Shown one piece after another: positions 1 through 8,935 of a DNA stretch of 9,418 nucleotides. The notes beneath the pieces are model-generated. The model saw only the letters and a program-made list of their open reading frames with translations. It was not told the origin of the DNA and did not search any database. Made by a program: the position numbers and the translations under genes. Within the stretch, counting starts at the first letter, position 1; the number at the start of each line of letters is the position of its first letter. Origin of the DNA: Cyanobacteria bacterium UBA9579 (GTDB lineage Bacteria > Cyanobacteriota > Vampirovibrionia > Gastranaerophilales > UBA9579); assembly GCA_003499585.1 (NCBI GenBank), contig DNSU01000182.1, positions 10,974 to 20,391 on the forward strand, in the 5' to 3' direction.

Positions 1-68
1 GCAATTTCAATAGTGACGCAGAGAACATCACCTTCAAACTTATTAATCACAACATTACATATATCCAT
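1..68 (-). CDS. 5' end of an unidentified gene after cysD (partial)
   Basis: An open frame begins at ATG 68, overlaps the end of cysD by 14 nt and runs off the left edge. It reads MDICNVVINKFEGDVLCVTI and onward. An in-frame GTG at 50 is an alternative start. The usual partner of CysD is the GTPase CysN, which starts close to a P-loop (GxxxxGKS). Nothing like that appears in these 22 codons, so this is either a different small protein or a chance open frame, with cysN further downstream or elsewhere. The purine-rich AAGAAAAG just before the ATG is a weak ribosome binding site. Overlapping starts are typical of this operon, which favours a real gene, but the evidence is thin. Confidence 0.3.
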   Translation of the reverse strand, partial: MDICNVVINKFEGDVLCVTIEI

Positions 69-855
69 CTTTTCTTAGTTTTTGCATAGCGTGAGCACCT
101 TCTTGATCCTGTGCCCTGCCTGATCTTTCTGAGTCTTTTGTGTTTTTAAGTTCTTCAATAATTTCATCGATATTGGATGCTGTTGATTCAATTGGAGAAG
201 TACATGGATAACAGCCTAAGCTTCTGTATCTTTTGCCTTCTTTTGAAAAATACAAGTCAATTATAGGGATATTCTCTTTCTTGATATATTGCCAGATATC
301 TACTTCATTCCAATGTAATATTGGATGCACTCGAATATGATTGCCTTTCTTGAAATCCGTCTTAAACTGATTCCATAATTCAGGCGGCTGATCAGTATAA
401 TCCCATTCGGAATCGGCATTTCTTTCACTGAAGATTCTTTCTTTTGATCTTGAACCTTCTTCATCTCTTCTGATTCCAAGAATTAAGCCTTCAAATTCAT
501 AGTTTTTAACTACCTGTTGAAGTCCTTCTGTTTTTAAAGCTTTACAACAGACCATTCTGCCTTTTTCAGGCCCCATTCCTTCTTTCACAGCATCTTGATT
601 AGTATGCACTATAAGATCAAAATTATATTTCTTTATAACTTCACCTCTGAATTCAATCATTTCAGGAATTTTGTATGTTGTATCAACGTGTATTAAAGGA
701 AATGGACAATGGCCGAAGAAAGCTTTCTTGGCCAACCACATTAAAACTGTGGAGTCCTTGCCTATTGACCATAACATGCCGAGTTTCCCAAAATGCTTAT
801 AAGCTTCTCTAAAAATATATATACTTTCAGCTTCCAGTTGGTCTAAATGATCCAT
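55..855 (-). CDS. cysD: Sulfate adenylyltransferase, small subunit CysD
   Basis: CysD is the catalytic half of ATP sulfurylase and makes adenosine 5'-phosphosulfate (APS) and pyrophosphate from ATP and sulfate, normally with the GTPase CysN. The 266-residue product has the family landmarks: QLEAESI near residue 6, the PP-loop SIGKDS at 30-35, PFPLIHVDT at 51-59, GIRRDEE at 127-133, WTE-like WNEVDIWQYI at 182-191, LGCYPCT at 213-219 and a C-terminal SERSGRAQD...KDGYM tail. It is shorter than the about 300-residue E. coli protein, because it lacks the insert before the RxLGC motif, and it carries a CC pair at 103-104, as in the compact forms I associate with anaerobes. The start is supported by AAAGGAG six nt before ATG 855. 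The gap to aprB is 18 nt. No CysN coding sequence is visible in the window. It is the last complete gene of the operon. Confidence 0.95.
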   Translation of the reverse strand: MDHLDQLEAESIYIFREAYKHFGKLGMLWSIGKDSTVLMWLAKKAFFGHCPFPLIHVDTTYKIPEMIEFRGEVIKKYNFDLIVHTNQDAVKEGMGPEKGRMVCCKALKTEGLQQVVKNYEFEGLILGIRRDEEGSRSKERIFSERNADSEWDYTDQPPELWNQFKTDFKKGNHIRVHPILHWNEVDIWQYIKKENIPIIDLYFSKEGKRYRSLGCYPCTSPIESTASNIDEIIEELKNTKDSERSGRAQDQEGAHAMQKLRKDGYM

Positions 856-873
856 TCTTATCTCCTTTTAAAT

Positions 874-1188
874 TTAATACTTGTTAGACTCTTTTCTATT
901 AATCTTTATAATTTTTTCATGTCCATCTTTATTCACTATGTGCCAGTTCAAACAATTGTCATTTTTAGATACATATAAATAACCGCCTTTTCCACCAATA
1001 TCTGATCCTAAGTAAAATTGAATAGCTCCTACAGAGCATTCTTTCACACAAGCAGTACATCCCCAGCAATCTTTTGGATATTTAAGATATGCTCTACGTT
1101 CTGCATCCTGAGAGATTAAACTTCCAGGGCAAACATTTGTACAATTACCACAGGAAATACATCTTTTGTCATCAATTTTAATGCTCAT
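874..1188 (-). CDS. aprB: AprB-like 4Fe-4S ferredoxin subunit of APS reductase
   Basis: A two-cluster ferredoxin of 104 residues, the likely electron-transfer subunit for the flavoprotein encoded just upstream. Counting from ATG 1188, the first cluster motif is CISCGNCTNVCP (Cys 10, 13, 16, 20) and the second is CWGCTACVKEC (Cys 41, 44, 47, 51). The Trp after the first Cys of the second motif matches the conserved AprB Trp proposed to relay electrons to FAD. SVGAIQFYLGSDIGGKGGY follows, typical of AprB-like proteins in assimilatory operons. Dissimilatory AprB is about 150 residues, so this form has a much shorter tail. I prefer ATG 1188 to ATG 1197: GGAAGG lies 10 nt before 1188 but only 1 nt before 1197. 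The start overlaps the aprA stop by 11 nt, implying translational coupling and equal subunit supply. Confidence 0.88.
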   Translation of the reverse strand: MSIKIDDKRCISCGNCTNVCPGSLISQDAERRAYLKYPKDCWGCTACVKECSVGAIQFYLGSDIGGKGGYLYVSKNDNCLNWHIVNKDGHEKIIKINRKESNKY

Positions 1189-2851
1189 AAATATCATTCC
1201 TTCCTATTAAATCTCGAAGAATAATATACACATTCCCATTTTCATATTTGGAATTGACATAACAAAGCCATTGCTTATCATCCTGATGAGGAAAATCAGC
1301 ATTTTCCTGATAACATTTCCATCTAGTTTCTTTTCTTGCAAACAAATGAGCTATTACAACCCTGGAAACATACAAACGATCAATTAATTCATAAATAAAC
1401 AGCAATTCATGAAGATTATTAGCCTTTAATTGATTGCTCACATCTAATAGCTCATCTATTTTTTCACTTGCAATCTTTAGTTTTTCCTTGCTATATGAAT
1501 AATTACAAGAAATTCCACCGGCAAATTCATCCATAACTCCTTGCATCTCTTCTTCCAGTGATTCAATAGAGTATGAAATATCAGGGTTATCCAGAAATTT
1601 ATTTATTGATTCAACTTGATTTCTCAGCTTTTCAGCATCTATTTTATTTATTTGTTTATCTTTTATTGCTTCAATAACAGCTAAAGCTGCTATTTCTCCT
1701 TCAGCAAAGCATCCGGTAACATACTTTTTAGGACTTCCTCCAGCCACATCGCCAACTGCATATAGACCATCCAATATTGTTTTTCTATTAATATCAATCC
1801 AGTATCCACTTGCGGTATGCCCGCCAGTGATGTATGGTTCTGTTCCTGTGATTTCAACATTTTCTATAGATGGACCAGAGTTGTTTTCAAGCCATCTTAA
1901 TGTCTGCGCAGGAGCCATATTCAGGTATGCTTTAAATAATTCTTCTTCCTGAGATTTGCCAATTCCTATGGTTTTTAAATAACAGGGACCATTTTCAGCT
2001 ATAGTTGAGTATAAACGCATTAAAGTAATTGGTTTACCATATTTTTCCACATACTCTTCGTCAGCATTATTTATCTGTGGTACATTTATGCCTTGAGCTA
2101 TCGTTCCGGTTGGAGCAATCGTATCTTTACACCTTAGAGCGATAAACCTCATCTCAAAAGACGTCATCTCAGCCCCGGCCCTAATTCCCATAGCATATCC
2201 TGCCCCTGTATTAAACGGGCTATACCACATTTTATGCCTTGAAAATTGCGGATTATTTGGCTTATATAACCCTGATGCTCCACCTGTCGCACAAATTACA
2301 GCTTTAGCATAAATTATACATATTGAGTTTTGATCTAATGAAAACCCTATAGCACCAACTACTCGATCATTTTTTAGTAGATAATCAACTATATTAACTC
2401 TATTTAGAACAGTTACAGTATCTTTAGTGTTAACGGCATCAGAAAGAAGAGGTTTTATATTCTCTCCATTAATTTTGATACTTCGCTTTCCTCTTGTTAT
2501 ATAGTCTCCTTTATCATCTTTTAAAATAGGAAGACCTAACTGTTCGATTTTTTGAGTTACTTTATTTAATCTTTGAGCTATTGAATAGACAAGATCCTCT
2601 CTTATAACTCCTTCTGAATCTTTTTTCACATAATCAACAAAAGACTCTGGAGTTTCTCCATTAGTAATATAAGCGTTTAAAGCATTAACACCGGCAGCCA
2701 GACATCCACTTCTTTTGATATTGGCTTTATCTGCAATTATAACTTTATAATCTGAATTTTCTGCTATGGTTAATGCACAATAACAGCCGGCAGTACCTCC
2801 ACCAACAATGAGAATATCAGTTTCAATAGTTTTAATATTAAATTGCATCAT
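1178..2851 (-). CDS. aprA: AprA-like adenylylsulfate reductase, FAD subunit
   Basis: A 557-residue flavoprotein of the fumarate reductase/succinate dehydrogenase fold, expected to reduce APS to sulfite and AMP with electrons from the ferredoxin encoded next to it. The N-terminal dinucleotide motif is ILIVGGGTAGCYCA (GGGTAG at 17-22). RSGCLAAGVNALNAY (47-61) and EMRFIALRCKDTIAPTG (233-249) resemble AprA substrate-site segments rather than SdhA. TGGHTASGYWID (342-353) supplies a candidate active-site His345, and TILDGLYAVGDVAGG (358-372) is the second FAD motif. Dissimilatory AprA is longer (over 600 residues), which fits an assimilatory-type enzyme. ATG 2851 and ATG 2848 are adjacent; GAGG lies 6 or 9 nt upstream, so either works. 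The start overlaps cysC by 14 nt and the end overlaps aprB. A general fumarate-reductase-like role is the alternative, but the neighbours make APS reductase much more likely. Confidence 0.9.
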   Translation of the reverse strand: MMQFNIKTIETDILIVGGGTAGCYCALTIAENSDYKVIIADKANIKRSGCLAAGVNALNAYITNGETPESFVDYVKKDSEGVIREDLVYSIAQRLNKVTQKIEQLGLPILKDDKGDYITRGKRSIKINGENIKPLLSDAVNTKDTVTVLNRVNIVDYLLKNDRVVGAIGFSLDQNSICIIYAKAVICATGGASGLYKPNNPQFSRHKMWYSPFNTGAGYAMGIRAGAEMTSFEMRFIALRCKDTIAPTGTIAQGINVPQINNADEEYVEKYGKPITLMRLYSTIAENGPCYLKTIGIGKSQEEELFKAYLNMAPAQTLRWLENNSGPSIENVEITGTEPYITGGHTASGYWIDINRKTILDGLYAVGDVAGGSPKKYVTGCFAEGEIAALAVIEAIKDKQINKIDAEKLRNQVESINKFLDNPDISYSIESLEEEMQGVMDEFAGGISCNYSYSKEKLKIASEKIDELLDVSNQLKANNLHELLFIYELIDRLYVSRVVIAHLFARKETRWKCYQENADFPHQDDKQWLCYVNSKYENGNVYIILRDLIGRNDIYEH

Positions 2852-3467
2852 CAGTAACCTCGAATTGTAGTATATTCCTGAGCTTTAAATAACTTATTAT
2901 TACTTCCGCACACTCATCTACTGTATTTGAATCACTATTAACAGATATCTCAGGATTATTAGGTATTTCATATGGAGAATCTATACCTGTAAAGTCTTTA
3001 ATTAAACCGGCTTTTGCTTTTTTATAAAGCCCTTTAGGATCACGTTGTTCACAGCTGTCAAGAGAACAATCAACAAAAATTTCAATAAAATCCTCTTTTA
3101 TTAGTTCTCTTACTTTACCTCTATCCTCTTTAAGAGGAGATATAAATGTAGCAATAGTAATAATACCAGCATCAACAAAGAGCTTGGCTAATTCTGAAAT
3201 TCTTCTTATGTTCTCTTTTCTGTCTATAAGGCTAAAGTTTAGATCAGAATTCAATCCATGCCGCACATTATCCCCATCAAGCAAATAAGTGAACTTATTA
3301 TTCTCATGTAGTTTTTTTTCAAGAGCATTAGCGATGGTTGACTTGCCTGAACCTGATAAGCCAGTAAACCACAATAATATTCCTTTTTGTTTGAGTAATA
3401 TTTCTCTATTACTTCGATTTATGGTTGTATCTTGCCAGACTATATTAGTTTTTATCTCTTTTTTCAC
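2838..3467 (-). CDS. cysC: Adenylylsulfate (APS) kinase CysC
   Basis: Phosphorylates APS at the 3' position to give PAPS. The 209-residue protein begins with the family lead NIVWQDTTINRSNRE (8-22), then has the P-loop GLSGSGKS (36-43), DGDNVRHGLN (64-73), RKENIRRISELAKLF (83-97), TFISPLKEDR (107-116, normally AFISPYREDR) and RDPKGLYKKAKAGLIKDFTG (142-161) with the SPYE segment after it. All catalytic motifs look intact. The GTG start at 3467 has GGAGG five nt upstream. It sits 18 nt after the permease and overlaps aprA. Its presence is notable because the neighbouring AprAB uses APS directly; no PAPS reductase (CysH) or sulfotransferase is visible here. PAPS may serve sulfation or pull the unfavourable sulfurylase reaction forward (inference). 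Confidence 0.95.
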   Translation of the reverse strand: MKKEIKTNIVWQDTTINRSNREILLKQKGILLWFTGLSGSGKSTIANALEKKLHENNKFTYLLDGDNVRHGLNSDLNFSLIDRKENIRRISELAKLFVDAGIITIATFISPLKEDRGKVRELIKEDFIEIFVDCSLDSCEQRDPKGLYKKAKAGLIKDFTGIDSPYEIPNNPEISVNSDSNTVDECAEVIISYLKLRNILQFEVTDDAI

Positions 3468-3485: not shown

Positions 3486-4967
3486 TCAGTTAATACCTAA
3501 CAAAGGCCAATAAAATAAAGCAGATAAGGCGAATATCACAATTGTGAGAATATTCAATAAGATTCCTTTTTTAATAAATTCTGATAATTTTATATATCCT
3601 GAAGCAAAGGCTATAGCATTGGGTGGTGAACCTATCGGAAACATAAAATCAAGTCCTGATGGAATAGCAACCAAAAACACAGCCAACTCTGGACTTAAAC
3701 CAAATTGAGAAGCAACTTTAAGAATAATTGGAAGTAATATTATTACTACTGCTGAATTGGAAATAACCTGAGTGAGTAAGAGGCTAAGTATAGACACTAT
3801 TAGAACAAAATTTAAAAGAGAAAATGTAATATCTGAAATATATTTTCCTGTTATAAAATCCAGGACACCTGTTTCAGCAAGGCATTTTCCAATAGCAATA
3901 GCGCCTCCATACATTAAAATCGTGCCCCAATTAATCTCTTTTTTGGCATCATCCCATTTCATAACGTTTAACACAAAGAATAAAGCAGCACTAATTAAAG
4001 CTATATTTGCAACTCCAAATTCCTTACTATGGAATATCCACATATATATAGTTAATAAGAATATTAATAACGCCTTAATTTCTTTAAAACTTACTTTTCC
4101 TACGCGCTGATCCTGCAATGATAAAGATTTTTCCATAAAATTTAAATTAGCTGTGGAATTTTGCAAACTTCTTTTGATATAAAAAGCAACAGCAGCCATA
4201 AGTATATAAGCTGGAGGGGCAACAACAATAATCCATTCTAGAAATCCTATACTATTTCCTGTTGACTCTTGAAGAATTCCAATAGCAAGAGGATTTCTAG
4301 CACCACCAAGGAGAGTAACAACCCCACCAATAGAACATCCCCATGCCATGGCAAAAAATATGTGTTTACCCAATACAGAGTCAAATCCCAATCTTAATTT
4401 ATTCGACATAGAAATCAGTATAGGAAAAAGCATTGCAGCAACAGCATGTTCTGTCATTATGTGTGACATAAATGCAGACAAAAAGAATATCGCCAGTACC
4501 AGTTTCTCTGGGGTTTCTTTAAACCTTGATATTATATGATATGAAATTCTTTCACTCAATCCGGAAGCTGATACTCCGGCAGAAATAATAAAAGAACCTA
4601 AAATAAAAAACAAGGATTCATTGCCAAAAAACGAAAATATCTTAGAAGCCTCAAGCACGTTAAATGTTGATAAAAGTGCCATTATCATTAAACTGGTAAT
4701 TGCAAGAGGAATGATATTAGTTACCCATAGAAACACTGCGAAAATGAAGATAATCATAGTTTGATAAGCCTCTACACCCAATCCCTGTGGAAGATTTACA
4801 GGTGAAATAAATATAAAAAACAATAAAAAGGCGAATATGAGCAATATTGCATTCTTATACTCAAGTAAAAACAGCAGTGCTAAAGGTCTTTTATCTATAT
4901 ACACCTTCGCTAAATCTTGAATATTGTTGTAATTATCCATATTAGGATTTTGCACTTTATTTTTCAC
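3486..4967 (-). CDS. SLC13/DASS-family anion permease, likely sulfate uptake
   Basis: A 493-residue inner-membrane protein with about a dozen hydrophobic segments beginning near residue 38. It shows the pseudo-repeat architecture of divalent anion:sodium symporters: FPILISM after a first re-entrant segment near 165-185, CSIGGVVTLLGGARNPLAIG (211-230, the SSIGG...TPPN-like site), then in the second half ISNSAVVIILLPI (402-414) and FMFPIGSPPNAIAFASG (441-457). The first signature position, normally SNT, reads TEH (172-174), while the second is SNS (403-405), so ion coordination may differ from VcINDY-like proteins. Sulfate as substrate is inferred from the operon; dicarboxylates are the family alternative. 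The start is a GTG directly after the upstream TAG stop, with a weak GGA six nt before it; ATG 4940 lacks a visible binding site. About 37 polar residues precede the first membrane segment. Confidence 0.85.
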   Translation of the reverse strand: MKNKVQNPNMDNYNNIQDLAKVYIDKRPLALLFLLEYKNAILLIFAFLLFFIFISPVNLPQGLGVEAYQTMIIFIFAVFLWVTNIIPLAITSLMIMALLSTFNVLEASKIFSFFGNESLFFILGSFIISAGVSASGLSERISYHIISRFKETPEKLVLAIFFLSAFMSHIMTEHAVAAMLFPILISMSNKLRLGFDSVLGKHIFFAMAWGCSIGGVVTLLGGARNPLAIGILQESTGNSIGFLEWIIVVAPPAYILMAAVAFYIKRSLQNSTANLNFMEKSLSLQDQRVGKVSFKEIKALLIFLLTIYMWIFHSKEFGVANIALISAALFFVLNVMKWDDAKKEINWGTILMYGGAIAIGKCLAETGVLDFITGKYISDITFSLLNFVLIVSILSLLLTQVISNSAVVIILLPIILKVASQFGLSPELAVFLVAIPSGLDFMFPIGSPPNAIAFASGYIKLSEFIKKGILLNILTIVIFALSALFYWPLLGIN

Positions 4968-5594
4968 CTATAATCCACTCGAATTTAAGGAGTCTGCTAC
5001 GCTCTTAACCATCAATTTCTGTCTTAGGTTCAGGGTTTCAAGTCTCATTTTTAGCTGAAGCTTATTTATTAATGAAAAATCACAAAGATTTTCCTCTAAT
5101 ACCGGTATATATTTTAAATACACAGAAGAAATCTCATTGAATTTATTATGACTCATAATAAATTCAACTAATTCCACATTACATTTCGTCACTACAGGAA
5201 TAATTTTGCTAGATAGCACTTTTTCTATAAGTAATTTATTATCACCAACATTTACAAAGACCAGACCATCTGGGAATATCTGTGCAGCAGAGGATATAAT
5301 TTCCAGTTGTATAGCAGAATATTTAGCCGAATCTTGATAAAAATAGACACCATGAGTCCCATAAGAAAAATATTCCTCTATCTTTCCCTGCTGGTCAGGC
5401 ACAGAACTCTTTAAAATTATAAAAATATCAAAATATTTTTTTATTAAGGCTATAGTATTTTTACGCTCATTTGCTGATACATCACTTTCAAATCTTAAAA
5501 GAGTAAATCGAAGATTTTTCAAGACAAAATCATCTTCAATCGCACTTAAGATTTTTTCTATTTTAGTATTAGCAGATATATTGAGCGTATTCAT
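4968..5594 (-). CDS. Unrecognised 208-residue protein of the sulfate operon
   Basis: I do not recognise this protein. It appears soluble: no signal peptide or membrane segment. The predicted beta/alpha rhythm, with strands such as FDIFIILKSSV (55-65), YGTHGVYFYQD (78-88), DGLVFVNVGD (109-118) and SSKIIPVVTKCN (128-139), resembles the middle and C-terminal part of a radical-SAM-type TIM barrel (compare 'lle.GahgV.i.l' and 'G.vPv'). The N-terminal CxxxCxxC cluster motif is absent; the only cysteines are at 138 and 171. A degenerate barrel or an accessory protein for siroheme, FeS or sulfur handling is possible but unproven. It lies 28 nt after the reductase and directly abuts the permease GTG, so it is firmly inside the operon. 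The start ATG 5594 has only a weak GGA six nt upstream. Function unknown. Confidence 0.75.
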   Translation of the reverse strand: MNTLNISANTKIEKILSAIEDDFVLKNLRFTLLRFESDVSANERKNTIALIKKYFDIFIILKSSVPDQQGKIEEYFSYGTHGVYFYQDSAKYSAIQLEIISSAAQIFPDGLVFVNVGDNKLLIEKVLSSKIIPVVTKCNVELVEFIMSHNKFNEISSVYLKYIPVLEENLCDFSLINKLQLKMRLETLNLRQKLMVKSVADSLNSSGL

Positions 5595-5622: not shown

Positions 5623-7227
5623 TCAACAAGTTTCACAGCAGTTTTTAGTGTTATTATCACCAAATCGAGCTATTAGCCGGAGTACATTTTCTTTTTCTAT
5701 TTCAAGAAATTCTGTAATGTCAGCAATTTCAGAGTTCCTTTTCAGTTTTGCCAGTTCATAAATAAATTCAGGAACCATCTCTGCATTGATCTCGCCATAA
5801 TCAGCCGCTAATCTCGTTTGACTAGCACCAATATGCCCACCAAGATAAATCTTATAAACAGATGTTAGCTCGTTATTTACCTTTTTTATTTTGCCAGCAA
5901 GTCCTATTTCTGCTTTTAAATGTTGGCCGCAAGAGTTAAAACATCCTGATATATGCAACCTGGGCAATTCAGCTTTTAATATTGGATCAACATTTTTAAA
6001 TTTCTTTATAATTGCCGCAAGCAAATGCTGAGAATTGCAGATTCCCGTTTTGCAAATCTCAGAACCAACACAGGAAAGAGAATTATCAATATCAAAAGAT
6101 GAGGTGAATTCAGAGATAATTTGAAATAATTTATATGCATCATTTGATTTCAGATCTCTTATTAATAGCCCTTGAGTGTTAGTTAAACGTATAGAAATCC
6201 TATAATTCAGTCTATTTATAAAGTTTATCAACCTGTTTAAATCAGAAAGTCTTAAATTCCCTCCTGTTGGATGAATATTGACTGCATAATCCTTATTTTT
6301 CTGTTGTATCACAAGTTGATTTTTGATTAAGAAAGATATATCTTCATTTTGATTGATATCATCAGAGCTATTCGAAATTATCTTAGGCTCTAAATCCAGC
6401 TCTTTAATCTTTTTTACTTTTTCTACATGCCATAAATACTTATTTCTAAACTCTTCTTCTCCTAATTTATATAAAATAAACCTGATTCTTGCTTTATTCC
6501 TATTGTCTCTATCTCCCTCAACCTCAAATAGTTCTTTCATTCCTTCAACATAGTAGAACAAATCAGTAGCAGGTATAAAATCAGCCAGCTTAATGGCAAT
6601 AGACGGATTATTACCAAGACTTCCTCCACCATAAACCTCAAAACCTCTAACGCTATCCTGAATCTTTGCGATAAAGCCTATATCAGAAATAGTTGCATAC
6701 GCAGTGTCAGAGTTTGAGTTAGAAAAAGATATTTTGAATTTTCTTGGAAGACTAAATGAAGATGAATCTTTTAAAAGATGATTCATGGTTTCTATTGCAT
6801 ATTCAGTTACATCAAAAACCTCATCAAAACTTACACCTGAAAGTGGTGAACAGGCAATATTTCTAACACAATTTCCGCCAGTGCCTTTGGAAATCAAGTT
6901 GATTCCCAAAAGATCCAACATAATATCAGGAATATCAGTTAAAGAAAGCCCATGGAACTGAATATCCTGCCTCGTAGTTAAATGTATATGCTCTTTTCCA
7001 AAAGATACTGCAATGGCATTTATTTTTCTTATTTGATCAAGCGTAATGACTCCAGCAGGAATTCCTACTCTTAACATATACTTTTCTGGGATTTTTTCTT
7101 CGTATATGCCCCAAGGAGCACAAAATTTCTTCAAATTACCCTTCGATAAATCTTTTTCCAACAATGCAAAAAGACTTTCTTTAAAATTCTCTGTTTCATT
7201 TATTATTTTTTCAGGTATTTTAAACAT
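5623..7227 (-). CDS. Siroheme sulfite (nitrite) reductase, ferredoxin type
   Basis: Six-electron reduction of sulfite to sulfide with coupled siroheme and 4Fe-4S centres. Numbering is from ATG 7239 (538 residues). Family features are LTTRQDIQFHG (87-97), GTGGNCVRNIACSP (119-132), a second half-domain containing IHPTGGNLRLSDL (322-334), and the cluster/siroheme ligands C390-x5-C396 and C433-x3-C437 (GCFNSCGQH). The QFHG form and the operon favour sulfite over nitrite. The protein ends NCCETC, an unusual Cys-rich tail. Two starts are possible: ATG 7239 (AGGG four nt upstream) and ATG 7227 (GGAG six nt upstream). I chose 7227 because its binding site is better and sits clear of the attenuator T-tract. 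It is the first structural gene after the cysteine leader and terminator, so the whole operon depends on readthrough. With no flavoprotein partner next to it, ferredoxin is the likely donor. Confidence 0.92.
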   Translation of the reverse strand: MFKIPEKIINETENFKESLFALLEKDLSKGNLKKFCAPWGIYEEKIPEKYMLRVGIPAGVITLDQIRKINAIAVSFGKEHIHLTTRQDIQFHGLSLTDIPDIMLDLLGINLISKGTGGNCVRNIACSPLSGVSFDEVFDVTEYAIETMNHLLKDSSSFSLPRKFKISFSNSNSDTAYATISDIGFIAKIQDSVRGFEVYGGGSLGNNPSIAIKLADFIPATDLFYYVEGMKELFEVEGDRDNRNKARIRFILYKLGEEEFRNKYLWHVEKVKKIKELDLEPKIISNSSDDINQNEDISFLIKNQLVIQQKNKDYAVNIHPTGGNLRLSDLNRLINFINRLNYRISIRLTNTQGLLIRDLKSNDAYKLFQIISEFTSSFDIDNSLSCVGSEICKTGICNSQHLLAAIIKKFKNVDPILKAELPRLHISGCFNSCGQHLKAEIGLAGKIKKVNNELTSVYKIYLGGHIGASQTRLAADYGEINAEMVPEFIYELAKLKRNSEIADITEFLEIEKENVLRLIARFGDNNTKNCCETC

Positions 7228-7245
7228 CTTATACTCCATTAATCC

Positions 7246-7290
7246 CTAAAACAAAGCCCGCATCATACAATTTCTTGGATATGCGGGCTT
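7246..7290 (-). terminator. Leader intrinsic terminator (attenuator)
   Basis: On the minus strand AAGCCCGCAT (7290-7281) pairs perfectly with ATGCGGGCTT (7263-7254). This is a 10-bp GC-rich stem with a 17-nt loop, followed by TGTTTTAGGG, so the stem end and tail give CTTTGTTTT. It lies between the Cys-rich leader ORF and the reductase start, where a terminator makes sense only as a conditional one. Its left arm overlaps the antiterminator described separately. Confidence 0.8.
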
Positions 7291-7327
7291 ATAAATTACT
7301 CATCAAGGTAATTAAAAATGACCCGCA
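7282..7327 (-). promoter_or_regulatory. Antiterminator alternative to the leader terminator
   Basis: TGCGGGT at 7327-7321 (the last codons of the leader ORF) can pair with GCCCGCA at 7288-7282 (left arm of the terminator): six Watson-Crick pairs plus one G-U. The enclosed segment carries its own perfect small hairpin, AATTAC/GTAATT at 7313-7294, which would stack inside. The two structures share 7288-7282 and so exclude each other. A ribosome at the leader stop (7314-7312) would cover 7327-7321 and favour termination. One stalled at the Cys-Cys codons (7341-7336) would leave it free and favour readthrough. Confidence 0.65.
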
Positions 7328-7419
7328 ATATCAATACAACATGCCATCATCTGACATCCTGATACTATTGCAGGTCTACAAGGTATATGAGCACTAATTA
7401 TTATTTGTCTTATTGCCAT
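7312..7419 (-). CDS. Cys-rich leader peptide of the sulfate operon
   Basis: A 35-codon ORF (ATG 7419, TAA 7314-7312) in the 5' leader of the operon. It begins MAIRQIIISAHIPC and later contains VSGCQMMACCIDIAGHF. Cysteines are at 14, 22, 27 and 28, all TGT, far more than expected by chance. The adjacent pair C27-C28 ends only 8 nt before the antiterminator segment, which starts at 7327. The peptide is probably not functional as a protein: its translation would act as a cysteine (Cys-tRNA) sensor, as in amino-acid operon attenuation. The ribosome binding site is weak (AAGAAAG about 10 nt upstream). The ORF has no hydrophobic segment or signal peptide. It is too short for most gene callers. That it is translated is inference; its position, Cys content and the exactly placed alternative hairpins are directly visible. 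Confidence 0.75.
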   Translation of the reverse strand: MAIRQIIISAHIPCRPAIVSGCQMMACCIDIAGHF

Positions 7420-7434
7420 TTAAAATAATCTTTC

Positions 7435-7453
7435 TTACCAGCTTGTTTGGTAA
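7435..7453 (-). other. Small hairpin upstream of the leader ORF
   Basis: TTACCA (7453-7448) and TGGTAA (7440-7435) form a perfect 6-bp stem with a 7-nt loop in the RNA, just upstream of the leader ATG. Its right arm adjoins the AAGAAAG that would serve as the leader's ribosome binding site, so it could modulate leader translation. It is short and AT-leaning, and may be incidental. Confidence 0.35.
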
Positions 7454-7466
7454 CTCTAAAAACATT

Positions 7467-7476
7467 CGGTATACCG
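7467..7476. promoter_or_regulatory. Palindromic operator candidate at the transcription start
   Basis: CGGTATACCG is a perfect 10-bp palindrome, flanked by ACATT on the left and AATGT two nt further out on the right. It starts at or just downstream of the start site predicted from the promoter at 7485-7513, where a bound repressor would block initiation. GGTATACC-like cores occur in sites of several dimeric regulators, including Rrf2-type proteins, but the regulator cannot be named from this window. Confidence 0.4.
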
Positions 7477-7484
7477 TAAATGTA

Positions 7485-7513
7485 ATTTAAATATAAAAAT
7501 TTATATTAGTCAA
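7485..7513 (-). promoter_or_regulatory. Putative sigma-70-type promoter of the sulfate operon
   Basis: TTGACT (7513-7508), a 17-nt AT-rich spacer and TTAAAT (7490-7485) match the -35/-10 pattern with correct spacing. Initiation would fall near 7478-7476, giving a leader of about 60 nt before the leader-peptide ATG. The -10 is imperfect and the region is AT-rich, so other -10 choices are possible. Confidence 0.5.
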
Positions 7514-7562
7514 TACGATATATCATAAATAATTAGTTTTATTTCATTAGTTTTTGGCAAAT

Positions 7563-7600
7563 AGGAACTCTAGCATTCGGAATTAAAATGCTGTGCCCCT
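7563..7600. repeat. Imperfect hairpin, REP-like
   Basis: AGCATT (7572-7577) and AATGCT (7587-7592) form the inner stem; AGG (7563-7565) and CCT (7598-7600) extend it with mismatches. The right half, ATGCTGTGCCCCTAAC, resembles one arm of the GGGGCAC...GTGCCCC palindromes common in cyanobacterial and some other genomes, with the left arm degraded. The resemblance is from memory and weak. Confidence 0.3.
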
Positions 7601-7702
7601 AACATAAAATATTTTTCATAAAATAGAATACTGTTAATAAAATAAATAGTTTCAGGATAATCAACCTTAAAATCTTTTAATATAATTGATTCAAAAATTT
7701 GA

Positions 7703-7840
7703 AATAAATATATTGCTCAAATTTTAGGAAATTTCTACTTTAATAGCCATAAAGTTAAAATAATTAATGTGGCTGAGGGCGATATTACTCTTTCTGCTTT
7801 TATGTATAAATACTTTAATCATATTAATTATTATATTTAG
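7703..7840 (+). pseudogene. Protein-like open frame without a start, possible remnant
   Basis: Forty-five sense codons run from just after a TGA (7700-7702) to TAG (7838-7840). The translation has an ordinary protein-like composition for such AT-rich DNA, for example VAEGDITLSAFMYKYFNHI after QILGNFYFNSHKV. There is no start codon with a binding site and no recognised domain. An overlapping frame (ATG 7767 to TGA 7842-7844) encodes a 25-residue, strongly hydrophobic peptide. One or both may be chance; a decayed gene tail is the main alternative. Confidence 0.2.
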
Positions 7841-7862
7841 ATGAATTTATGCAATAAAATGC

Positions 7863-7901
7863 AATTCCCTGATAATTCCCTGTTATCATTACGGGAATTT
7901 T
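7863..7901. repeat. Direct and inverted AATTCCCTG repeats
   Basis: AATTCCCTG occurs twice, at 7863-7871 and 7874-7882. The second copy forms an inverted repeat with GGGAATT (7893-7899): a 7-bp stem and 12-nt loop followed by TTG. A related palindrome lies about 100 nt further on, suggesting a family of dispersed palindromic repeats rather than a single terminator. Confidence 0.5.
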
Positions 7902-7962
7902 GTCTAAAATCCAGCCTATGGTTGTATAGAACATTAATAAATCTTTCAAAAATTTTAAAAAA

Positions 7963-7995
7963 TCCCTGTATTTTTCTTGTCATCAGGGAATTTTT
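7963..7995. repeat. CCCTG palindrome, possible bidirectional terminator
   Basis: TCCCTG (7963-7968) pairs with CAGGGA (7984-7989) across a 15-nt loop. It is preceded by a run of A and followed by ATTTTT, so it could end transcription in either direction. It shares its core with the repeat pair at 7863-7901. Confidence 0.4.
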
Positions 7996-8086
7996 ATAGA
8001 GAACTAATTCAGAGAATAATGCTGCCTAAACTCCAATATCCGTATCTTAGTCCTATAAAAGAGAATAAGTAACTTTTAGACTGGCT

Positions 8087-8120
8087 AAATCCCCGCACCT
8101 GGCGGGATTTTTTAGTTTTT
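8087..8120 (+). terminator. Rightward intrinsic terminator with no visible gene
   Basis: AAATCCCCGC (8087-8096) and GCGGGATTT (8102-8110) form a GC-rich stem of 8-9 pairs with one bulge and a 5-nt loop, followed on the plus strand by TTTTAGTTTTT. The minus strand lacks a comparable T-run. No plus-strand gene precedes it, so it may end a small RNA or be a relic. Confidence 0.65.
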
Positions 8121-8271
8121 AGATTAAAAGAGAATTATTTTTTGAGAGTTTTAGCAGGATTTAATTGGAAAATTTAGCAAATTTCTCTGTTTCATTTTTT
8201 GGTGGGGGACTTCTGCTTTTGGGTTCATAAATTTTATTTTGCTTTTACAGATAGATTAATTTATTAATAGA

Positions 8272-8304
8272 AAAATAGAGATTATAATTTATAATCTCTA
8301 TTTT
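8272..8304 (-). terminator. Perfect 33-nt palindrome ending the higBA operon
   Basis: AAAATAGAGATTATAA (8272-8287) and its exact complement (8289-8304) flank a single T. The RNA hairpin has a T-rich 3' end in both directions. It lies 35 nt past the higA stop and could serve as a terminator for the toxin-antitoxin operon and for rightward transcripts. Confidence 0.6.
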
Positions 8305-8339
8305 AATTTCGATAGTTACTTTAGGAATTCTTACAATTC

Positions 8340-8621
8340 CTAGCCATACATTTTCTGAATTTTATCAACATTAACTGTTTGTCGGGCTTGCGCTAAATCA
8401 TATTTTTGTTGCATATTTAACCAGAACTCAGGAGTGGTATTAAATGCTTTAGCAAGTTTTAAAGCCATCTCTACTGAAACACCAGCCTTTTGATTAATTA
8501 TTCTTGATACGATTTGTCTGGATACACCTAATTTTAGTGCAAACTCAGTTACACTTAATCCAAGTGTTTCAATGTTATCTTTAATAAGTATTCCAGGATG
8601 TACCGGATTCTTCATTGACAT
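8340..8621 (-). CDS. higA: HigA-type antitoxin, XRE-family DNA-binding protein
   Basis: A 93-residue antitoxin expected to bind and neutralise the toxin encoded just upstream and to repress their shared promoter. NPVHPGILIKDNIETLGLS (5-23) is the typical HigA opening. The helix-turn-helix spans about 24-48 (TEFALKLGVSRQIVSRIINQK), and AFNTTPEFWLNMQQKYDLA (65-83) is the classic HigA tail. Length is normal for the family and nothing is missing. ATG 8621 has AAAGGA ten nt upstream; ATG 8615 (MKNPVHPG) is an alternative, which many HigA proteins would match better. It follows higB by 35 nt on the same strand, the toxin-first order characteristic of HigBA, and is followed by a perfect-palindrome terminator. 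Confidence 0.93.
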   Translation of the reverse strand: MSMKNPVHPGILIKDNIETLGLSVTEFALKLGVSRQIVSRIINQKAGVSVEMALKLAKAFNTTPEFWLNMQQKYDLAQARQTVNVDKIQKMYG

Positions 8622-8656
8622 ATTATCACCGTCCTTTTAATAAGTTAGGAGTATTC

Positions 8657-8935
8657 CTAATGGTAATCCTCATAATCTAATATATAAGCATCTCCTTTTT
8701 CAAATTTAAAGGTTAACCTCCAGTTTGCTCTTACTGTTACTGCCCAGATATCTTTTCTTTCACCTTTTAATTGATGCAGCCTAAAACTTGGTTGATCTAA
8801 ATCTGCAACTTGACATGCTGAATCTATAGCTGATAATAAGAGCCTGCACCTTTCTCTGTGTTCAGGGTTTATTCCTGAATAATCATCATCGGAGTATGCC
8901 TTTTCTAACTTTTTATTTTTAAAAGTTTTAATCAT
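8657..8935 (-). CDS. higB: HigB-type toxin, RelE/ParE superfamily
   Basis: A 92-residue toxin of the HigB branch, expected to cut mRNA on the ribosome when the antitoxin is lost. It begins MIKTFKNKKLEKAYSDDDYS and has the family hallmarks RLLLSAIDSA (31-40), FRLHQLKGERKDIWAVTV (51-68), NWRLTFKFEKGDAYILDYE (71-89) and the DYEDYH end. Basic residues in the LKGERK and WRLTF strands are in the usual catalytic positions, so the toxin looks intact. The start codon has no ribosome binding site: the -10 box ends only 6 nt before the ATG, so the mRNA is probably leaderless. The higA gene follows after 35 nt. The pair may be a mobile stabilising module inserted beside the sulfate operon (inference). 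Confidence 0.93.
   Translation of the reverse strand: MIKTFKNKKLEKAYSDDDYSGINPEHRERCRLLLSAIDSACQVADLDQPSFRLHQLKGERKDIWAVTVRANWRLTFKFEKGDAYILDYEDYH

Follow-up and report, generated by a model that had tools for sequence, protein, structure and literature searches.

A probable cysteine-sensing attenuator ahead of a sulfate-assimilation operon in Cyanobacteria bacterium UBA9579

Introduction

Could a short open reading frame (ORF) rich in cysteine codons serve a sulfate-assimilation operon as its sensor of cysteine supply? The question is raised by a leader in Cyanobacteria bacterium UBA9579, within a stretch of 9,418 nucleotides (nt) of contig DNSU01000182.1 (positions 10,974 to 20,391) that was analysed as a whole and is called the window here. 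Leader-peptide attenuation is textbook knowledge for tryptophan, histidine, leucine, isoleucine-valine, threonine and phenylalanine; in the trp and his attenuators the regulatory codons lie in a leader ORF, and three helices follow a 1:2, 2:3, 3:4 logic. An earlier note on this DNA proposed that the leader is a cysteine-sensing attenuator of the leader-peptide kind. Tests at the level of sequence and modelled folding support that proposal, and we put at roughly 80% the probability that the leader controls the downstream sulfate-assimilation operon by ribosome-mediated attenuation of transcription, with charged tRNA-Cys as the signal.

Results

A cysteine-rich ORF over three overlapping helices

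All leader and operon features of the window lie on the minus strand. Those of the leader are:

7484..7513, minus strand, predicted promoter: -35 TTGACT (7513-7508), 18 nt, -10 TAAATT (7489-7484); transcription start near 7477
7312..7419, minus strand, cysteine-rich leader ORF: TGT at 7380-7378, 7356-7354, 7341-7339 and 7338-7336
7366..7376, minus strand, segment 1: GACCTGCAATA; pairs with segment 2 over 11 base pairs (bp), -18.9 kcal/mol
7320..7330, minus strand, segment 2: TATTGCGGGTC; 7327-7321 also pairs with segment 3 (antiterminator)
7281..7290, minus strand, segment 3: AAGCCCGCAT; terminator left arm; 7288-7282 pairs with segment 2; 2:3 -15.4 kcal/mol, 3:4 -20.4 kcal/mol
7254..7263, minus strand, segment 4: ATGCGGGCTT; terminator right arm
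7248..7255, minus strand, U-rich tail of the terminator: TTTGTTTT; its first two T are the end of the stem

The ORF, its codons, the complementary segments, the U-rich tail and the operon are read directly from the DNA. The ORF runs from ATG 7419 to TAA 7314-7312 (35 codons, translation MAIRQIIISAHIPCRPAIVSGCQMMACCIDIAGHF), and codons 14, 22, 27 and 28 are TGT, as the earlier note had it. Between the ORF and the first gene stands a GC-rich stem of 10 bp (7290-7281/7263-7254) followed by TTTGTTTT, an intrinsic terminator placed as in attenuators of the trp and his type. The 7-bp alternative pairing that had been described, 7327-7321 (TGCGGGT) with 7288-7282 (GCCCGCA), is likewise present. A further helix, missed earlier, joins 7376-7366 to 7330-7320 over 11 bp. 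When the ungapped helices of 7440-7239 were listed and ranked by predicted energy, 3:4, 1:2 and 2:3 were, in that order, the top three, and they are predicted to overlap as in the trp and his leaders. Segments 1 and 2 both lie within the ORF; Cys22, Cys27 and Cys28 fall in the interval that separates the two, and Cys14 is found just 5' of segment 1. The terminator hairpin was not listed by the promoter/terminator scan because its loop of 17 nt exceeds the limit of 8 set in that scan.

Predicted effect of a stalled ribosome

The transcript downstream of a ribosome at each codon was folded as far as 7275, just after segment 3, with the 3' edge of the ribosome assumed at +10, +13 and +16 nt. With no ribosome, the probability of helix 1:2 is 0.92 and that of 2:3 is 0.05. 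With the A site anywhere from about codon 13 to codon 28 the predicted probability of the 2:3 antiterminator is ~0.9, and at the stop codon it is 0. The values at the three edges (+10/+13/+16) are 0.91/0.91/0.91 for Cys14 and also for Cys22, 0.94/0.95/0.68 for Cys27 and 0.95/0.68/0.02 for Cys28; the first three codons are permissive for all three footprints, and Cys28 for two of three. As in the trp and his leaders, codons for the product of the pathway are repeated where a stalled ribosome would mask segment 1 and not segment 2 (for Cys28 at two of the three footprints only). The earlier note had argued that the tandem cysteine codons end 8 nt before the antiterminator, the distance at which a stalled ribosome leaves it free; for Cys28 this holds at the +10 and +13 edges and fails at +16, so that the spacing is borderline.

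These features suggest a mechanism in which folding in the cell, translation, stalling, readthrough and the signal itself are what we infer. Without a ribosome, 1:2 would form first and leave 3:4 free, making termination the default state. With sufficient cysteine, a ribosome would reach the stop codon (7314) and cover segment 2, and 3:4 would again terminate. If Cys-tRNA ran short, a ribosome stalled at Cys14, Cys22, Cys27 or Cys28 would cover or strip segment 1; with segment 1 masked, segment 3 would be taken up by segment 2 before the polymerase has made segment 4, the terminator would be blocked, and the genes for sulfite reductase, the sulfate permease, CysC, AprAB and CysD would be transcribed. 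Helix 1:2 strengthens the attenuator reading because it supplies the default terminating state in which no ribosome is present.

The operon behind the leader

The genes that would be controlled are, from the leader onward:

5623..7227, minus strand, ferredoxin-type nitrite/sulfite reductase, first structural gene; best models matched below cutoffs
4968..5594, minus strand, 208-aa protein of no named family, before the DASS gene; relatives (43-49%) in 6 of 25 related loci
3486..4967, minus strand, DASS-family anion symporter, likely sulfate uptake; TIGR00785 above cutoff
2838..3467, minus strand, CysC, adenylyl-sulfate kinase; TIGR00455 above cutoff
1178..2851, minus strand, AprA-type adenylyl-sulfate reductase alpha; NF005331 above cutoff
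874..1197, minus strand, AprB-like ferredoxin subunit; best match aprB, below cutoff
55..855, minus strand, CysD, sulfate adenylyltransferase small subunit; NF003587 above cutoff

These gene models bear out the AprAB-type sulfate operon that the earlier note had placed behind the leader. Adenylyl-sulfate reductase and sulfite reductase carry out the reactions that yield sulfide for cysteine. We count these products of the operon as support for a cysteine-sensing attenuator. The sulfite reductase is best started at ATG 7227, which is preceded by GGAG and fits the 534-aa protein P0001; an upstream ATG at 7239 is also possible. The P0001 cluster spans two contigs, the second of which codes for a nearly identical sulfite reductase. 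The 208-aa protein has no NCBIfam or Pfam match. Among the matches listed, the nearest other sulfite reductases are ~51% identical and the nearest AprA ~70%, the named ones being mostly clostridial; by these values the source is divergent. Upstream on the same strand, 8340-8935 holds a HigB-like toxin and helix-turn-helix antitoxin pair, followed by ~900 nt without a clear gene.

How unusual the leader is

The 201-nt leader folds with a z score of -3.46, and one of 200 dinucleotide shuffles folds as well. A search blind to codons looked for terminators overlapped by a 2:3 helix that in turn overlaps a 1:2 helix, and summed the energies of 1:2, 2:3 and 3:4. This arrangement arises in 57 of 4000 dinucleotide shuffles, none of which reaches -40 (best -39.1), against -54.7 for the leader. 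Taken alone, the cysteine codons are mildly unusual (P = 0.012 for at least four in 34 at the base composition, 0.003 at the cysteine rate of the operon); the chance that all four fall within codons 14-28 is 0.029, for a range picked after the stall model had been seen.

The same search was applied to 92 loci, the window among them, which total 1.73 Mb and come mostly from clostridial relatives; several places are present twice (L002/L115, L006/L154 and L013/L116 are examples). Of 264 terminators before genes, 16 carry the helix set. The lowest summed energy is that of the window, which is also the only one of the 16 where the ORF spanning the helices has adjacent cysteine codons; another of them, L016, has a 65-residue ORF with three non-adjacent cysteines. 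A second set of 97 loci, again including the window, gave 66 terminators and 11 arrangements, with cysteine-rich ORFs in the window, L028, L068 and L069. In L068, a metagenome-assembled genome (MAG) of the Helicobacteraceae, the cysteine-rich ORF (LAFCAKCAFMGECVRKNPRFCICCL) lies at 15849 (minus strand) over a terminator with overlapping helices.

Points against the attenuator reading

Several observations weigh against attenuation by cysteine codons. Short ORFs rich in cysteine are no rarity: among 696 ORFs of 25-45 codons that start with ATG between the genes of the compared loci, 37 contain at least four cysteines, some of the leaders found here included. The main doubt is the apparently weak ribosome-binding site at the leader ATG. 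Its Shine-Dalgarno energy is -2.9 kcal/mol, a value equalled by half of the 203 ATGs of the strand, compared with -7.1 to -12.4 at CysC, AprA, AprB and CysD and -5.9 at the first gene. Sites as weak as that of the leader also occur within the operon, at the 208-aa gene (-3.3) and at the ATG chosen for the DASS gene (-1.7). The in-frame ATGs 7350 and 7347 have an AGGA and better Shine-Dalgarno energies than ATG 7419 (-4.6 and -4.9). A start there would give a peptide of 12 or 11 residues (MMACCIDIAGHF or MACCIDIAGHF) and would leave only the tandem Cys27-28 usable.

In the full-length equilibrium fold the terminator prevails in every state (3:4 ~0.9), and the switch must therefore decide during transcription. 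Known attenuators are held to decide in this way. The predicted promoter matches the consensus at 9 of 12 positions, which is weak alone, since 7150-8650 contains 13 matches of this kind where shuffles predict 9.5; this match places the predicted transcription start ~58 nt 5' of the leader ATG. At that start lies a perfect 10-bp palindrome, CGGTATACCG (7467-7476), which may be the operator of a repressor acting in addition to the attenuator or in place of it, so that control is possibly double. An inverted repeat, TTACCA-7-TGGTAA (7435-7453), occupies the 5' part of the leader RNA just 5' of the ORF.

No homologous leader was found in any of 66 related AprA loci. There is therefore no covariation test for the leader of the window, whose helices and cysteine codons are those of a single sequence, and we regard this absence of close homologues as the main gap in the case for an attenuator.

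The frequency of cysteine-rich ORFs, the weak ribosome-binding site and the palindrome would each suit an arrangement in which the hairpins are real and control is not by the cysteine codons: a terminator that is constitutive or governed by an RNA-binding protein, the codons being incidental. Such an arrangement does not call for segments 1 and 2 to lie inside the ORF, nor does it account for three helices that exclude one another and for regulatory codons that fall where a stall is permissive, and the window holds no credible Rfam element; we consider it unlikely.

Related AprA loci and other kinds of control

A degenerate form of a known cysteine or S-adenosylmethionine (SAM) sensor, such as a T-box or SAM riboswitch, would be in keeping with several clostridial loci where such elements precede sulfite reductase. 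It is contradicted by a search of the whole window with cmscan (Rfam) at E-values up to 1, which found no T-box and no SAM riboswitch, and we give this explanation hardly any credence. The only match, to MicC, was spurious (32 bits against a cutoff of 90).

Rfam was also run on 21 long and 13 short related loci, where a T-box denotes the Rfam class only, for any amino acid. T-boxes were found in L002, L005, L006, L007 and L107; of the SAM riboswitches, one each was found in L002 and L006 and two each in L005 and L111. With no gene between, a T-box stands directly before sulfite reductase in L002 (read as L115), L006 and L107, and a SAM riboswitch does so in L002, L005, L006 and L111; the remaining elements precede other genes, and in L007 the stretch examined contains no AprA. 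That some relatives show RNA control of these other kinds, linked to tRNA or SAM, we count in favour of the attenuator reading. A crude motif count over the 66 AprA loci gave 4 with a T-box, 13 with a SAM core and 52 with neither. Apparent cysteine ORFs were set aside in L005 and L006, where they overlap T-boxes or a SAM riboswitch, in L012, where by eye the overlap is with an S-box, and in L049 (MCCCCSGCILIY), which lies inside a 344-aa ORF. A naive scan of 81 sequences for cysteine-rich ORFs with terminators returned a long list, with coding regions unfiltered, that is useless without a test of architecture.

Two clostridial AprA operons, L182 (6949-7008) and L204 (13666-13592), carry upstream ORFs (uORFs) preceded by a Shine-Dalgarno sequence and ending MRCCC and MCCRMCMAQR. 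Both directly precede the gene of a solute-binding protein whose context suggests that it binds sulfate; no terminator of the window's kind was seen there, and the two uORFs are likely of a translational type. When 24 loci with a clostridial sulfate-binding protein were searched for such uORFs, 22 had a usable start and one was convincing (L223, the same place as L204); the candidates in L233 and L241 were not. With L182 and L204/L223 as the only cases, clostridial cysteine uORFs of this kind are therefore rare. The promoter regions of L103, L104, L106, L108, L112 and L204, in clostridial sulfate operons, share a conserved stretch near ATAGGAATAGTATGAATTAA right after the promoter; it looks like a regulator box of a CymR-like kind.

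Translational control could also be proposed for the window, the short cysteine uORF coupling or blocking translation of the next gene and the terminator being minor. L182 and L204 would be parallels, as would the mycobacterial polycysteine uORFs, reported as translation attenuators in the accessible text of PMC13236596 and PMC9031893. Two features are at odds with this explanation, which we hold to be very unlikely: ORF and gene are separated by a GC-rich 10-bp hairpin that ends in a U-rich tail, and the left arm of this hairpin is matched precisely by segment 2.

A separate polycysteine family and an Opitutia case

The attenuator logic proposed for the window recurs elsewhere, in an independent parallel that we count in its favour. 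In L069, a Bacteroidetes MAG by title, a uORF with the cysteine-rich stretch CCACCCC is followed by a 15-bp terminator and then by sulfite reductase. Within the order of L069, a close sulfite reductase was found in 8 of 20 genomes, at nine places, and all nine have a polycysteine uORF and a strong terminator. The stretch TTTCGCGAAGG is invariant in these nine leaders and yet is read in two frames (FREG or VSRR), so that conservation seems to act on the RNA and not on the peptide. In all nine the stretch can pair with the left arm of the terminator. Across these seed leaders 63 of 63 cells retain the 2:3 pairing, a figure uninformative by itself since only one pair varies; in the family terminator both partners have changed at two pairs, a count matched by 144 of 500 shuffles.

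A covariance model built from these leaders (R1) was searched in 294 genomes and matched 111 at E 0.01 or better, many of the matches covering only the terminator half. Of 23 newly read places, 10 have a polycysteine ORF before a gene and 13 do not; a terminator is present in nine of the 10. The genes behind the 10 uORFs encode a cysK-like PALP protein (3), sulfite reductase (2), a hexapeptide transferase, presumably cysE-like (2), a pyridoxal-phosphate enzyme of cysteine/methionine metabolism (1), phosphoadenylyl-sulfate reductase (1) and a rhodanese (1). A 2:3 helix lies at the end of the ORF in 15 of 18 loci examined (16 counting L215), with none in L256 and L260; compared with shuffles of the upstream stretch, 12 of 18 fall under 0.1 and the others do not. 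In L255, L259 and L266 segment 2 has TGAAGG for CGAAGG and segment 3 CCTTCA for CCTTCG, changes that keep the pairing intact. In L275, segment 2 lacks the change that would go with CCTTCA in segment 3, and only GAAGG pairs. Regulon-like loci are L210, L214-L221, L255-L260, L265, L266, L275 and L277, mostly with antiterminator and terminator. Taken together, the leaders suggest an apparent cysteine-attenuator regulon in a Bacteroidota-labelled lineage, over sulfite reductase, cysK-, cysE- and cysH-like and rhodanese genes. The window gave no match to R1 at E up to 10; judged from their sequences, the two share the same logic and no shown kinship. The family offers comparative evidence that the single locus of the window cannot.

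An Opitutia MAG (L028, 3386-3740) has two divergent polycysteine uORFs that are apparently leaderless, by eye directly after -10-like boxes, with GC-rich hairpins following. One points toward sulfite reductase and siroheme synthase; the other faces the genes of a conserved membrane protein and of a second protein that resembles sulfite reductase. R1 weakly matches one of them (17.3 bits, E 0.0035). No second example was found in the Opitutia order, where one of 132 genomes matched at E 1e-90, that of L028 itself.

Discussion

The window, the Bacteroidota-lineage regulon and the isolated Opitutia and clostridial cases incline us to the view that sensing by cysteine codons recurs in the control of sulfate and cysteine assimilation well beyond actinobacteria, and that it was invented or exchanged several times. 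If the attenuator reading of the window is right, this genome uses a leader-peptide sensor where some relatives have RNAs that bind tRNA or SAM, and a sulfate operon under a complete cysteine attenuator would provide a simple cysteine sensor that can be tested codon by codon.

The earlier note thought the arrangement possibly undescribed; it is less so than supposed. The accessible part of PMC8632094 describes the uORFC-8-2 motif before cysS in Rhodobacterales, a predicted cysteine attenuator with a terminator, in which tandem cysteine codons (usually 14-15) lie inside the first stem and attenuation was inferred from sequence by the authors. Like the window, it has a short uORF with tandem cysteine codons followed by an intrinsic terminator; unlike the window, it controls a cysteinyl-tRNA synthetase in alphaproteobacteria and has two stems, and that part of the text does not mention a 2:3 antiterminator. 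A cysteine attenuator with a terminator on a sulfate operon was not met in the literature searched, most subscription papers being outside its reach, and the accessible portions of PMC11109978, PMC6429828, PMC4833913 and PMC7366714 describe no cysteine attenuator.

In the sources as far as they are accessible, cysteine attenuation has so far been reported as translational in mycobacteria and predicted before one tRNA-synthetase gene. Seliverstov 2005 (PMC1262725) describes cysteine leader peptides before actinobacterial cys operons, without conserved terminator hairpins in the text available, and Shell 2015 (PMC4633059, available text) describes cysteine uORFs in mycobacteria. Canestrari 2020, as cited in PMC9094748, PMC13236596 and PMC9031893, links polycysteine uORFs of mycobacteria to a cysteine response; these uORFs are described as leaderless, acting by translation attenuation, in what could be seen of PMC13236596 and PMC9031893. 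As in the window, clusters of cysteine codons lie upstream of cys genes in mycobacteria and actinobacteria, whereas the mycobacterial type is leaderless and translational and the window's ORF begins ~58 nt after the predicted transcription start and is followed by a terminator.

The cysteine T-boxes of clostridia likewise sense tRNA-Cys charging and cause premature termination before cysteine genes, according to the accessible text of PMC2940859; they differ from the window in that the tRNA binds the RNA directly, with no leader peptide. In Firmicutes, His leader peptides replace T-boxes (Naville and Gautheret 2010, PMC2965389, available text). With the trp and his attenuators the window shares its helix logic, and it differs from them in its cysteine codons and its operon: the logic is old, and the novelty lies in the amino acid, the operon and the lineage.
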